Shown here: positions 59,260 through 64,000 of the stretch, in pieces
Position numbering within the stretch: the stretch's first letter is position 1
Layout: each line of letters starts with the position of its first letter
Origin: Phormidium tenue FACHB-1052
Lineage (GTDB): Bacteria > Cyanobacteriota > Cyanobacteriia > Phormidesmidales > Phormidesmidaceae
Assembly: GCF_014696675.1 (NCBI RefSeq)
Contig: NZ_JACJQN010000014.1
Location: forward strand, 1 to 64,000
Length of the DNA stretch: 64,000 bases
Direction of reading: 5' to 3'
Position numbers and translations under genes: made by a program
Notes under the pieces: model-generated
Told to the model about the DNA's origin: nothing
The model's database searches: none
What the model saw: only the letters and a program-made list of their open reading frames with translations

Positions 59260-60024
59260 TTACGACGCTAGGCTTTTCTGAAGGCGATCGCGCAGGGCCG
59301 CCAAGATTGACAGGTCAGCATCAACGCTCGATCGCCCATCGTATTGAAATGGGTTATCCAAATCGCGAATTAGCAGCAGCAAATAGGTAAAGGCAGTAAA
59401 CAGCAGGCACGACACCACCAGGGTTTCGCTAAAGCTGGCAGAACCAATCAGCAGCAGGGCGCACAAGACCCCCACCAAAAACAGCTCTAGCAGCACGTAG
59501 GCCGGGCCGATAAAGTCGGTATCGCGATTGATGCCAATGTAGGCCAGCAGCAGACGAATTTTGGCCTGCTCCGCTTGCATGCGGCTGATGATGGGGCCGC
59601 TGGTGTAGGGCAGCATCCCCGCCAAGGAGACGTTGAGCTGGTCGAGGTTAGGGGCGATCGCATCCTGGGGTTTTTCTTGCTCTAGCCAGTCGAGGATAGC
59701 CTGCACAATAGCCACCAGATTTCGAGTCAGGGGGATAGGGTCATACTCTCCGTTAGCCTTGGCCACCAATAAACTGCTGTCTTGAATGGCCTCAATGGCA
59801 TTGGCCACCTGCACCGGCATATCAGCACTGGCCTTGAAGTCGCTCAGGGTGCCGTTGAGCACAAAGGCAATCACAAAAGTTGCCGCCCCAAACAGCGACC
59901 CGGTGAGGGGGTCAAAGGCCCACGGTTCCCAGCCCAAACGGTGTACGGCCACCTTAGCCAGCCCATACAGGCCCGTCAGCGGCAGCACCGTCAGCAATAT
60001 TCGCCACTTCGTTGGCAACACCAT
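59260..60024 (-). CDS. Bestrophin-like (DUF4239-type) membrane protein
   Basis: 254 residues with two membrane helices near the N-terminus (about 8-28 and 42-60), two near the C-terminus (about 168-190 and 195-212) and the closing motif RDLDNPFQYDGRSSVDADLSIL. That ending is the DUF4239/bestrophin-like signature. Bestrophin relatives are anion channels; function here is inferred only. Confidence 0.7.
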   Translation of the reverse strand: MVLPTKWRILLTVLPLTGLYGLAKVAVHRLGWEPWAFDPLTGSLFGAATFVIAFVLNGTLSDFKASADMPVQVANAIEAIQDSSLLVAKANGEYDPIPLTRNLVAIVQAILDWLEQEKPQDAIAPNLDQLNVSLAGMLPYTSGPIISRMQAEQAKIRLLLAYIGINRDTDFIGPAYVLLELFLVGVLCALLLIGSASFSETLVVSCLLFTAFTYLLLLIRDLDNPFQYDGRSSVDADLSILAALRDRLQKSLAS

Positions 60025-60179
60025 GGTTGCGATCGCTCCTAGAGCAGCCCTCTACACAACCTCAACCCATAGCTTGGGCTGTTGTTATGGTAAGCGCTGG
60101 GCTGAGCCATGACCTACGCGGCGAATTATGCAAATCCTACATGTTGCTCATGCGATAAAAGGATGGCTTGCTACAAAGC

Positions 60180-60221
60180 GTAACTAAAAATACAAAACAC
60201 GTTGCGAAGTTTGAATAATTT
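60180..60221 (+). promoter_or_regulatory. NtcA-activated promoter
   Basis: GTA (60180-60182), 8 nt, TAC (60191-60193) matches the NtcA site exactly. TAATTT (60216-60221) lies exactly 22 nt further, the spacing of class II NtcA promoters (TAN3T box). Predicted transcription start is about 60227. It lies about 410 nt before nrtA and directs plus-strand transcription, fitting control of nitrate uptake by nitrogen status. Confidence 0.82.
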
Positions 60222-60226
60222 AAGCT

Positions 60227-60370
60227 CAAATACCGCAGTGTAAGGCCGCAGAAATGCTGACTTTTCCCTCGGTATTTGTAGTAAGCAAAAAATCGTGGGG
60301 CTGCGGCTTTGTAAATCCTAAACACTGCTTTACTGAAACGGCTTAACCTGACAGAGAAGCTCTCCTTTTT
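60227..60370 (+). ncRNA. Structured NtcA-controlled leader or small RNA (candidate)
   Basis: Helix A pairs CAAATACCG (60227-60235) with CGGTATTTG (60270-60278). Helix B pairs AAGGCCGCAG (60242-60251) with CTGCGGCTTT (60301-60310), with one G-U pair. Helix C pairs GCAGTG (60235-60240) with CACTGC (60323-60328). A' lies inside B's loop, so A and B/C compete or form a pseudoknot. A weak GAGA-AGC-TCTC hairpin plus T5 ends near 60370. This could be a nitrogen-controlled sRNA or an attenuating leader of nrtA. Not matched to a family. Confidence 0.45.
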
Positions 60371-60639
60371 GCAGCATCCAGCTTAGAGTCTGGCTAATCT
60401 AGGGGCGAATCTTAGCCCAAAGCCTCCTAATCAATCACCTATCTCTTGTTTGTTCTGCCAACATTGCCACAGTTTGTTTAGAAAATTTCTGATTTTATAG
60501 AGAGCTAAACACTGGCTTCTGTGAGCAGCAATTTAGGTTGAGACTCAGATTTCCTCGGGGATGACTACAACGGTGAGATGCCGCTACCCGATTCTTTTTT
60601 CCAATTCACCACATTGCCTAACGTTGGAGTGAGCACAAT
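60371..60639. other. Remaining upstream region of nrtA
   Basis: About 270 bp between the candidate leader RNA and nrtA. No open reading frame with coding character and no second exact GTA-N8-TAC site is seen. GGAGTGAG at 60625-60632 is the nrtA ribosome binding site. Confidence 0.4.
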
Positions 60640-61953
60640 ATGACTCGACTAAATCGCCGTAGATTTTTGATGACCGCCGGCACCGCAGCAGCCGGTACTG
60701 TGCTGCTCCACGCTTGCAGTCAGGGCGAATCTGACTCAGCTTCGTCAGACACCCCGACCGCAGCGCCCGCCAACTCGTCCGAGGCCCCAGAAACGACCAC
60801 CGCCAAGCTGGGCTTTATTGCGCTAACCGACTCTGCCCCGCTGATTATCGCCAAGGTCAAAGGGTTCTTTGACAAGTACGGCATGACCGACGTATCGGTT
60901 GAGAAGCAGGCCTCCTGGGGCACCACCCGCGACAACCTGGTGCTGGGTTCTGGCGGCGGCGGCATTGACGGGGCGCACATTCTCACCCCCATGCCCTATC
61001 TGATCTCTGAGGGCATTGTCACCGACGGCAAGAAGGTGCCAATGTACATTCTTGCCCGCCTCAACACTAATGGTCAGGGTATTTCGCTCTCCAACGACTA
61101 CCTCGATCTCAAGGTCACCAAAGACAGCACCCCGCTCAAAGAGGTGTTTGCCAAGCGCAAGGCCGAAGGCAAAGAACTCAAGGCCGCAGTAACCTTCCCC
61201 GGCGGCACCCACGACCTGTGGATGCGCTACTGGCTAGCCGCTGGCGGCATTGACCCCGACCAAGACATCTCGACCATTGTGGTGCCCCCGCCGCAGATGG
61301 TGGCCAACATCAAAGTGGGCAACATGGATGCCTTCTGCGTGGGTGAGCCCTGGCCGCTGCAATTGGTGAACCAGAAAATTGGCTACAACGCTCTCACCAC
61401 GGGCGAACTGTGGAAAGACCACCCTGAGAAAGCGTTGGGTATGCGGGCTGACTGGGTCGATGCCAACCCCAAAGCTGCCAAAGCGCTGCTGATGGGCGCG
61501 CTAGAGGGTGCCATGTGGTGCGATCAGCCTGAGAATAAGGAGGAAATGTGCCAGATTCTCTCCGAACGCGCCTGGTTTAATGTGCCTGTTTCAGACATTA
61601 TCGATCGCTCCCAAGGGAAGTTCGACTTTGGCACCGACCGCGTCGAAGAGCTGCCCGACCTGATGCAGAAATACTGGGCTGACAATGCCTCATACCCCTT
61701 CAAGAGCCACGACCTGTGGTTCTTAACTGAGAATATCCGCTGGGGTAAGCTGCCCGCCGATACTGACACCAAGGCGTGGGTCGATGCGGTCAACCGCGAA
61801 GACCTCTGGCGCGAAGCGGCCACCGCTCTGGGCCAAGAAGCCATGATTCCCAAGAGCACCTCCCGTGGAGTTGAGACCTTCTTCGACGGCGTTACCTTCG
61901 ACCCCGAAAATCCCCAGGCGTACCTCGACAGCCTGAAGATCAAGCGGGTGTAG
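60640..61953 (+). CDS. nrtA: Nitrate/nitrite-binding lipoprotein NrtA
   Basis: 437 residues. The N-terminus combines a twin-arginine motif (NRRRFLMTAG) and a lipobox (LLHAC). The mature part follows NrtA closely: LGFIALTDSAPLIIAKVKGFF, KQASWGTTRDNLVLG, GIDGAHILTPMPYLIS, TFPGGTHDLWMRYWLAAGGID and AFCVGEPWPLQLVNQKIGY. It is the periplasmic solute receptor of the ABC nitrate/nitrite transporter. CmpA (bicarbonate) is the close alternative; the NtcA promoter and the residues near NGQGIS favour nitrate. Confidence 0.92.
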   Translation: MTRLNRRRFLMTAGTAAAGTVLLHACSQGESDSASSDTPTAAPANSSEAPETTTAKLGFIALTDSAPLIIAKVKGFFDKYGMTDVSVEKQASWGTTRDNLVLGSGGGGIDGAHILTPMPYLISEGIVTDGKKVPMYILARLNTNGQGISLSNDYLDLKVTKDSTPLKEVFAKRKAEGKELKAAVTFPGGTHDLWMRYWLAAGGIDPDQDISTIVVPPPQMVANIKVGNMDAFCVGEPWPLQLVNQKIGYNALTTGELWKDHPEKALGMRADWVDANPKAAKALLMGALEGAMWCDQPENKEEMCQILSERAWFNVPVSDIIDRSQGKFDFGTDRVEELPDLMQKYWADNASYPFKSHDLWFLTENIRWGKLPADTDTKAWVDAVNREDLWREAATALGQEAMIPKSTSRGVETFFDGVTFDPENPQAYLDSLKIKRV

Positions 61954-62059: not shown

Positions 62060-62905
62060 ATGACGGCACCCCTCGATATTCGCCCGACGCGATCGCGCTT
62101 CAACCTGCAAAAGTTCGCCAATTCGTCTCTGGATGCGCTCAAGGGACTGATTCCCCCGGTGGTGGCGATTCTGATCTTCTTGGTCATCTGGCAAGTGCTC
62201 ACCATGGGGCCTGATGCCAACCTGCCTACCCCGGTGCGCACGGTGACAGAAACCTGGGAACTGATCATCAACCCCTTCTTTAACTACGGTGGCACCGATA
62301 AGGGTCTGTTTTGGCAGGTGTGGACTAGTCTGCAGCGGGTTGCCCTGGGCTTTACCCTGGCGGCGGTGGTCGGCATAGCTCTGGGCATTTTGGTGGGCAC
62401 CAGCTCGCTAATGTATAGCGCCCTCGACCCCCTGTTTCAAATTTTGCGCACGGTGCCGCCCTTGGCCTGGCTGCCGATTTCGCTGGCGGCGTTTCAGCAG
62501 GCGAATCCTTCCGCTATTTTCGTGATTTTTATTACGGCGATCTGGCCCATCATCATCAACACCACCGAGGGTGTTCGCCAGATTCCGCAAGACTACAACA
62601 ACGTGGCGCGGGTGCTCCAGCTATCTAAGTCTCAGTACTTCTTCAAAATTTTGTTTCCGGCCACCGTGCCTTACATCTTCACCGGATTGAGAATTGGCAT
62701 TGGCCTATCTTGGCTGGCGATCGTGGCGGCAGAAATGCTGATCGGCGGCGTGGGCATCGGCTTCTTCATCTGGGATGCCTGGAACAGCTCCCGCATCAGC
62801 GACATCATCATCGCCATTCTCTACGTGGGTATTGTCGGTCTGCTGCTCGATCGCCTGATTGTATTCGTCGGTGGCCTGGTGCTGCCCGAAGAACAGAAGC
62901 AGTAG
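62060..62905 (+). CDS. nrtB: Nitrate ABC transporter permease NrtB
   Basis: 281 residues, six membrane helices of the NrtB/SsuC/TauC class with the EAA-like loop QIPQDYNNVARVLQLSKSQYFFKILFPATVPYIFTG and LRIGIGLSWLAIVAAEML. It forms the membrane channel of the nitrate transporter. It is 106 nt after nrtA. Confidence 0.93.
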   Translation: MTAPLDIRPTRSRFNLQKFANSSLDALKGLIPPVVAILIFLVIWQVLTMGPDANLPTPVRTVTETWELIINPFFNYGGTDKGLFWQVWTSLQRVALGFTLAAVVGIALGILVGTSSLMYSALDPLFQILRTVPPLAWLPISLAAFQQANPSAIFVIFITAIWPIIINTTEGVRQIPQDYNNVARVLQLSKSQYFFKILFPATVPYIFTGLRIGIGLSWLAIVAAEMLIGGVGIGFFIWDAWNSSRISDIIIAILYVGIVGLLLDRLIVFVGGLVLPEEQKQ

Positions 62906-63082: not shown

Positions 63083-64000
63083 ATGTCTGTCTTTGTTGAA
63101 GTTGACCATATCGATCGCGTCTTTAAGCTGCCCACAGGCGGCGAGTACATTGCCCTCAAAAACATCGACCTGCAAATTCACAAAGGGGAGTTTGTCTCCC
63201 TGGTAGGTCACTCGGGCTGCGGCAAATCGACCCTGCTCAACATTCTCTCAGGGCTAGATCAGCCCAGCGCGGGCGGCATTGTGCTCGAAGGGCGGCAGGT
63301 CACCGAGCCTGGCCCCGATCGCATGGTCGTCTTCCAAAACTATTCCCTGCTGCCCTGGCTGACGGTGCGCGAAAACATTGCCCTAGCGGTAGACCGGGTG
63401 ATGAAGAAGCATCCCCAGGCGGTGCGCGATCGCATGATTGACCACCACATCGAGATGGTGGGCCTGCAAAAGGCGGCGAACAAGCGCCCTGGCCAAATCT
63501 CGGGCGGCATGAAGCAGCGGGTGGCGATCGCCCGCGCCCTGGCCATTCGCCCCAAGCTACTGCTGCTGGATGAACCCTTTGGGGCACTGGACGCCTTGAC
63601 GCGCGGCGGGCTACAAGAACAGCTAATGCAGATCTGCCAGGAAAACGAAGTCACCTGCGTCATGGTCACCCACGATGTGGATGAGGCGCTGCTGCTGAGC
63701 GATCGCATCGTGCTGATGACCAACGGCCCCGAGGCCCACGTGGGCCAGATTGTCGATGTGCCATTCCCCCGGCCCCGCGAGCGCATGGAGGTGGTCAAGC
63801 ACCCCAACTACTACAGCCTGCGCAACGAGATCGTCTACTTCCTCAACCAGCAGAAGCGGGCCAAGCTGCATAAGGCCAAGCCCGTGGTGGCCGTAGCCGC
63901 CAATGGCCTGGAGAAGGTCAATCTGGAACTGGGCTTTATTCCCCTGGTCGACTGTGCGCCCTTGGTCGTCGCCAAAGAAAAGGGCCTGTTTGAGGCCCAT
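63083..64000 (+). CDS. nrtC: Nitrate ABC transporter ATPase NrtC, cut by window edge
   Basis: 306 codons are visible. ATPase domain (about 1-255): Walker [11 protein letters not shown]-loop [12 protein letters not shown], signature [14 protein letters not shown], Walker [13 protein letters not shown] and switch VTHDVDEAL. From about residue 270 an NrtA-like domain begins ([27 protein letters not shown]), the NrtC-specific fusion thought to regulate transport by binding substrate; it runs off the window. ATG 63083 begins the domain directly. Confidence 0.94.

Follow-up and report, generated by a model that had tools for sequence, protein, structure and literature searches.

The nrt operon in the 64,000-nt stretch of DNA analysed here (the window) appears to start from a nitrogen-controlled NtcA promoter, and a small hairpin, kept by most relatives in the genus, probably forms at the beginning of the leader transcribed from it. 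The reading that we prefer, with a probability of slightly under one half (about 0.48), is a class II NtcA promoter followed by a 412-nt leader whose genus-specific 5'-terminal stem-loop, designated hairpin A, acts in cis by end protection and/or binding. In this model, transcription of nrtABC(D) would depend on a class II NtcA-activated promoter, with position 60228 as the predicted start, and the first 50 nt of the leader would fold as hairpin A, which would leave no free 5' overhang. By analogy with other mRNAs, hairpin A would protect the 5' end of this long untranslated leader against 5'-end-dependent decay, would offer its apical loop, the conserved CAGAAATG, as a binding site for a protein or an RNA, or would do both. 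A second pairing, helix B, could refold the same left arm and is the predicted more stable end state in the genome of the window. Should the hairpin or the alternative fold govern the decay or translation of the mRNA, a post-transcriptional layer of regulation of nitrate uptake would be added to that by NtcA.

The features of the locus are listed in Table 1. The nrtA product has the NrtA structure 2g29 as its best match among solved structures (phmmer, E 6.5e-200, compared with 1e-133 for CmpA, 2i48). CmpA is a bicarbonate protein, and a CmpA-like paralog is located on a different contig of the same genome. The start of nrtC was taken to be an ATG within the open frame listed from 63005. The nirA gene of this genome lies apart from nrtA on contig C33 (PF01077 match); its product shares 77% identity with NirA of PCC 6406, and an NtcA-type box is located about 140 nt upstream of the gene. 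In the lineage represented by this locus, nrtA is separated from nirA; it has an NtcA-type promoter to itself and a long leader in which a 5' hairpin is conserved. Among the best 80 of 578 named loci, a listing that may omit the window's own record, the closest ones are from Nodosilinea and related Leptolyngbyaceae. On the minus strand, a divergent open frame of 254 amino acids (59260-60024), which gave no NCBIfam match, has its intergenic region in common with nrtA.

Table 1 Features of the nrt promoter, leader and genes in the window (consensus and spacing rule from the accessible part of PMC3898017)
Feature	Position	Strand	Basis
NtcA box GTAACTAAAAATAC (GTAN8TAC)	60180..60193	+	exact match; kept in genus
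Extended promoter motif TACAAAA-N11-GTTTGAATA, genus-specific	60191..60217	+	counts across family genomes
-10 box TAATTT (TAN3T)	60216..60221	+	exact match; consensus from PMC3898017
Predicted transcription start	60228	+	box centre 60186.5 + 41.5; spacing rule from PMC3898017
Hairpin A, 5'-terminal	60228..60277	+	alignment pairing, null model, shuffles
Hairpin A outer stem	60228-60235/60270-60277	+	AAATACCG with CGGTATTT
Hairpin A inner stem	60242-60245/60262-60265	+	apical CRCAGAAATG conserved
Helix C	60235-60241/60322-60328	+	perfect pairing; extends B in window genome and closest relatives
Helix B	60242-60251/60301-60310	+	nine Watson-Crick pairs and one G-U
Helix B extended, left arm	60239..60251	+	alignment pairing, null model, blind scan
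Helix B extended, right arm	60301..60313	+	alignment pairing, null model, blind scan
Most conserved leader block, TTCTGCCAACATTGCCACAGTTTG ... TCTGATTTTATAGAG	60453..60502	+	leader conservation
GGAG, likely ribosome-binding site of nrtA	60626..60629	+	region conserved in leader alignment; predicted role
nrtA, nitrate-binding protein	60640..61953	+	phmmer against solved structures
nrtB, permease	62060..62905	+	NCBIfam TIGR01183 ntrB above cut-off
nrtC, ATP-binding subunit	63083..64000, runs past window edge	+	NCBIfam TIGR01184 above cut-off

The promoter and its distribution

Promoters activated by NtcA are described by a GTAN8TAC box centred at -41.5 from the transcription start and a -10 box of the form TAN3T (PMC3898017, accessible part). 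A previous sequence-only reading of this DNA had called the box, the 22-bp spacing and the TAATTT exact, and GTAACTAAAAATAC-N22-TAATTT is indeed present at 60180-60221. The distance from the predicted start to nrtA is 412 nt, and the 24 leaders that were extracted from genomes or loci with the promoter measure 368-600 nt by the same reckoning; the 22-nt spacing between box and -10 box is constant in all of them. Within the window, the composite promoter pattern occurs once, compared with a mean of 0.06 over 100 shuffles, six of which contained a match. In the whole genome it occurs 18 times, compared with 16 occurrences of a reversed control pattern, so that the match alone is not significant, the genome-wide motif was rejected as stand-alone evidence, and support for the promoter comes from its conservation.

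A match to nrtA is present in all 26 genomes of the genus, and the promoter upstream of it is kept in 22, exactly in 20 of them and with GTG for GTA in two. Two genomes without it, G005 and G018 (loci L059 and L058, respectively), carry nirA directly upstream of nrtA, and the other two, G013 and G016, have upstream sequences of only 228 and 2 nt, too short to tell. Also in L066 and L067 (PCC 6406), further relatives without an nrtA promoter, nirA is directly upstream. In L067 (Leptolyngbya sp. PCC 6406), a short tandem repeat of ACCTAC units at about 1905-2000 was seen by eye to take up a large part of the nirA-nrtA gap.

The longer motif TACAAAA-N11-GTTTGAATA was found in exactly one copy each in 21 of the 26 genus genomes, at promoter sites already identified, and was absent from the remaining 37 of the 63 family genomes searched. 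A DNA search that reached beyond the family, covering 57 genomes, gave matches in 20, all of the genus. The looser pattern GTAN8TAC-N20-24-TAN3T was scanned for in the named loci and, among the best 80 of 578, occurs also in nine loci outside the genus group. Six of these are from Microcystis (L095, L100, L101, L104, L105, and L116), with GTAN8TAC-type and TAN3T boxes 360-365 nt upstream of nrtA, so that nrtA may have acquired a long NtcA-driven leader on more than one occasion. As a prediction drawn from sequence comparison, the view that NtcA controls a long nrt leader whose 5' end is structured finds support.

Hairpin A at the predicted 5' end of the leader

Two alignments of the leaders were used: A1 with 20 of the 24 (G021, G014, G002, and G024 were left out by eye as too divergent in the 5' part) and A2 with 17, which is also without G004, G008, and G001. 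Pairings were compared with slid controls, in which the same pairing is shifted along the alignment, and with a phylogenetic null model, in which the parsimony number of changes per column is placed on the nrtA tree; this null undercounts repeated changes, and the structures tested were chosen partly from the same data.

As the sequence-only reading had proposed, helix A begins at the predicted start, and it is the outer stem of a hairpin of about 50 nt. In 18 of the 20 leaders of A1, its first arm starts at the predicted position +1, and in the other two at +2, the start itself being predicted. Over the 20 leaders, 82.3% of the 378 cells of the 19 pairs are paired (at most 48.1% in slid controls), and the covariation score is 0.264 (at most 0.136 in slid controls); double changes occur at 12 of the 19 pairs, and likewise at 12 in the control slid by +3. 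None of the 1000 null simulations reached as many paired cells, and the p values for double-change pairs and double-change cells are 0.003 and 0.046. When the closest clade is cut to one sequence, the three measures (paired cells first) give p=0.0055, 0.0055, and 0.0385. For the outer stem alone, p is 0.012 for paired cells and 0.067 for double-change pairs, and on the 17-row alignment 0.028 and 0.66, respectively. By paired cells, the inner stem reaches p=0.047 and the apical stem p=0.018, and the middle stem of three pairs (columns 17-19 with 48-50) is unsupported by the null (p=0.26). Duplex energies of cognate versus swapped arms of helix A do not differ significantly (p=0.09, in a permutation that ignores relatedness).

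The first 54 nt were also compared with dinucleotide shuffles for stability of any fold, which gave a mean z of -1.93 over the 24 leaders; 15 of them reach z -1.5 or lower, and G021, G002, and G024 have values near zero. The window's leader from 60225 to 60370 exceeds its shuffles in stability by a modest margin, with z -1.69 and 9 of 200 shuffles equally stable. A covariance model, R1, built from A1 recovers a single copy of the hairpin in each of 18 of the 26 genus genomes, always at nrtA; since all 18 are in the model, these matches arise by construction. R1 found no hairpin in G021, G014, G002, and G024 at E up to 1, which indicates that not every such promoter needs the hairpin and that the pairing of 82% describes a selected set. 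In the 37 family genomes outside the genus, no R1 hairpin was obtained under stricter filters with 87 candidates scored per genome, a setting in which weak relatives could be missed. Hairpin A is described here as a leader element found in one genus only, with a predicted role.

A blind scan of about 80,000 seven-pair stems of the leader (79,800, counted at a slightly looser column filter) left 43 that passed a filter. Ranked by null z-score, the inner part of hairpin A is 9th and its outer stem 20th-21st of the 43. The top stem of the scan, 60571-60577/60605-60611 (z 3.1), is unrelated to these helices and lies close to the nrtA ribosome-binding site. In the predicted equilibrium ensemble of the window genome, hairpin A is nearly absent (pair probability 0.00).

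Helices B and C and the explanations compared

Helix B has its left arm in common with hairpin A, and the two are mutually exclusive; the second arm of A (60270-60277) lies within the loop of B between 60251 and 60301, and helix C extends B with perfect pairing in the window genome, both as the sequence-only reading had described. In the 17 leaders of A2, B and C together pair in 75.6% of 287 cells (54.7% in the best slid control), and B alone in 76.9%. Against the null, B gives p=0.010 for paired cells, 0.013 for double-change cells, and 0.035 for double-change pairs; the corresponding values are 0.0275, 0.0175, and 0.0475 without the window genome, and with the closest clade cut to one sequence the three p values, paired cells first, are 0.020, 0.0245, and 0.032. 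Helix C is unsupported outside the closest species, both with all 17 leaders (p=0.074 for paired cells, 0.23 and 0.16 for the double-change measures) and in reduced sets (p=0.09 and 0.29). In the blind scan, extended B (60239-60248/60304-60313) takes ranks 2 and 4-6 of the 43 filtered stems, and B is thus better supported than most chance pairings, though not cleanly. The choice of B was made post hoc, and other segments are almost equally good partners for its T-rich right arm. Duplex energies of cognate versus swapped arms gave p=0.002 for B and C together, 0.017 for B, and 0.028 for C, the permutation ignoring relatedness, and the duplex of C is strong mainly in the closest clade.

Predicted ensembles for the first part of the leader have A dominant (pair probability at least 0.6) in 11 of 17 species and B dominant in two, the window genome and L054; in G007 only C is favoured, and in G010, G023, and L062 none of the three helices is strongly favoured. 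For the window genome, the state with B and C is predicted to be favoured over A by 5.4 kcal/mol. Transcription would complete A about 36 nt before extended B, so that in the window genome A could form first and then be displaced. The proposal of competing helices holds in part: on checking homologous leaders for compensatory changes, hairpin A as a whole is the best supported, B is weakly so (p about 0.01-0.05, post hoc), and C is not. As an alternative fold of the same left arm, helix B is moderately supported; the competing fold is predicted to be strong mainly in this strain.

Among the 24-mers of the leader, conservation is highest at 60452-60475 (0.907, compared with a mean of 0.74 and with 0.88 for the ribosome-binding region). 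In the mid-leader block (60453-60502), a near-palindromic CTGCCAACATTGCCACAG is accompanied by TCTGATTTTATAGAG at an almost constant distance; among the 17 aligned leaders, the spacing from 60452-60475 to a following TCTGATTYTATRGA-like sequence is the same in 16 and three bases longer in G003. The block is present in 19 of the 24 leaders, 17 being recognised by pattern and L054 and G015 by alignment; exact copies of the search pattern occur in 10 of the 26 genus genomes, each at nrtA, and copies with one mismatch occur elsewhere too. A stem enclosing its -10-like part (60472-60476/60506-60510) gives p=0.014 for paired cells and 0.21 for double-change pairs in the null. The block may serve as an activator site, in which case a second start would lie near 60505, or as an RNA element. 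Several further candidates in the leader were rejected: the ATG at 60254 opens a frame of 30 codons in the window genome, and ATG or frame is lost in relatives such as G010, G007, and G019 (by eye); the mid-leader block can form 7 of 8 pairs here with the ribosome-binding region of nrtA, a pairing that is disrupted in G022 and G025 with no compensating change (by eye); and kissing of the apex of hairpin A with 60485-60491 gave null p values of 0.058 for paired cells and 0.51 for double changes.

A rather unlikely explanation is that only the promoter is functional and that the hairpin and helices in the leader are under no selection and look conserved through kinship. It would account for the four promoter-bearing leaders without the hairpin, for the modest p values of single stems and the equal scores of several unrelated stems, and for the weak consensus fold of the whole leader (-3.62 kcal/mol), but the whole of hairpin A scores above a null in which the tree and the changes per column are retained, and it surpasses all slid controls in paired cells and covariation score. 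Hairpin A may instead be one half of a bistable leader, in which A forms first and is displaced by B (with C in this lineage), the choice being set by a ligand, a protein or the speed of transcription and controlling nrt expression without an intrinsic terminator. The common left arm, the passing of the null by B, its high ranks in the blind scan, and the advantage of the combined B and C state in the window genome all fit such a leader; we nevertheless consider it unlikely, as A dominates in most species and B in two, C fails the null, and B was picked afterwards and has a promiscuous right arm. With no terminator and a ribosome-binding site about 300 nt away, moreover, no output device is visible. 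A wider version, in which the Nodosilinea nrt leader is a bistable RNA with both folds selected that acts together with the mid-leader block on transporter expression without a terminator and represents an undescribed nitrogen-linked class that arose when the nirA-nrt operon was split, appears improbable to us.

In a two-promoter region, a second, activator-dependent promoter would reside at the mid-leader block and the NtcA transcript would be secondary. The exceptional conservation of 60452-60475 would be explained in this way, and a near-palindromic CAACRTTG would lie about 42 nt upstream of the start implied by the conserved TCTGATTYTAT. A -10 box usually has an A at position 2. This base is missing from the would-be -10 sequence TTYTAT, a scan of 59500-61000 found no sigma-70-type site, and the restriction of exact block copies to nrtA offers no regulon support, so that such a second promoter is quite improbable. 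The sequence-only reading had itself proposed a weak terminator near 60352-60371 and, with it, either an attenuator in the nrt leader or an NtcA-induced small RNA of about 140 nt. That terminator falls below the threshold of the scanner: the plus strand from 59500 to 61000 yielded no site, a scan of our own of the same kind found none in the leader of the window genome, and terminator-like sites in the first 200 nt are present in 4 of the 24 leaders at four different places. An attenuator based on an intrinsic terminator was therefore rejected, and a discrete 140-nt RNA is likewise not supported at its predicted end. The far upstream position of the NtcA promoter, the structured 5' end, and a short T-run at 60367-60371, which is also present in four aligned close relatives, would suit a small RNA that ends near 60371 with read-through into nrtA; against this stand the terminator results and the position of 60342-60413 among the least conserved leader sequence, and we regard such an RNA as very improbable. 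A transcript end may be generated by processing or by another type of termination. The preferred reading, an NtcA promoter with a leader that begins with a cis-acting hairpin A, retains the best accord with these data.

Comparison with known systems

Glutamine riboswitches are leader RNAs of nitrogen genes. No Rfam family matched the window at gathering score, nor the region 60100-60660 at E up to 5, and a known Rfam riboswitch or leader family was rejected on this basis (no covariance-model matches). A report of a structured nrtA leader was not found in the open-licence literature, which is weak evidence of absence. NsiR4 is an NtcA-activated small RNA linked to nitrogen assimilation (PMC9196836, accessible part), and the transcript predicted here resembles it in being NtcA-driven and nitrogen-linked; it differs in having no predicted terminator, in being co-oriented with and upstream of nrtA, and in being found in one genus only.

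The promoter itself is of a known kind. It agrees with the canonical class II NtcA promoters of nirA, urtA, glnA, and ntcB in the GTAN8TAC box, the TAN3T box, and a spacing that fits a centre at -41.5 (PMC3898017, accessible part), and differs from them in its longer, genus-specific constraint TACAAAA...GTTTGAATA and in serving nrtA without nirA, which is located elsewhere in the genome. The hairpin, by contrast, is an element found here in one genus only, with a predicted function. The ompA, papA, and aprE leaders carry 5'-terminal stem-loops that stabilise bacterial mRNAs (cited in the accessible part of PMC3997798), and hairpin A is predicted to share with them the location of a stem-loop at the extreme 5' end of a long leader; the likeness is one of position, and a role of hairpin A in mRNA decay is suggested by analogy.
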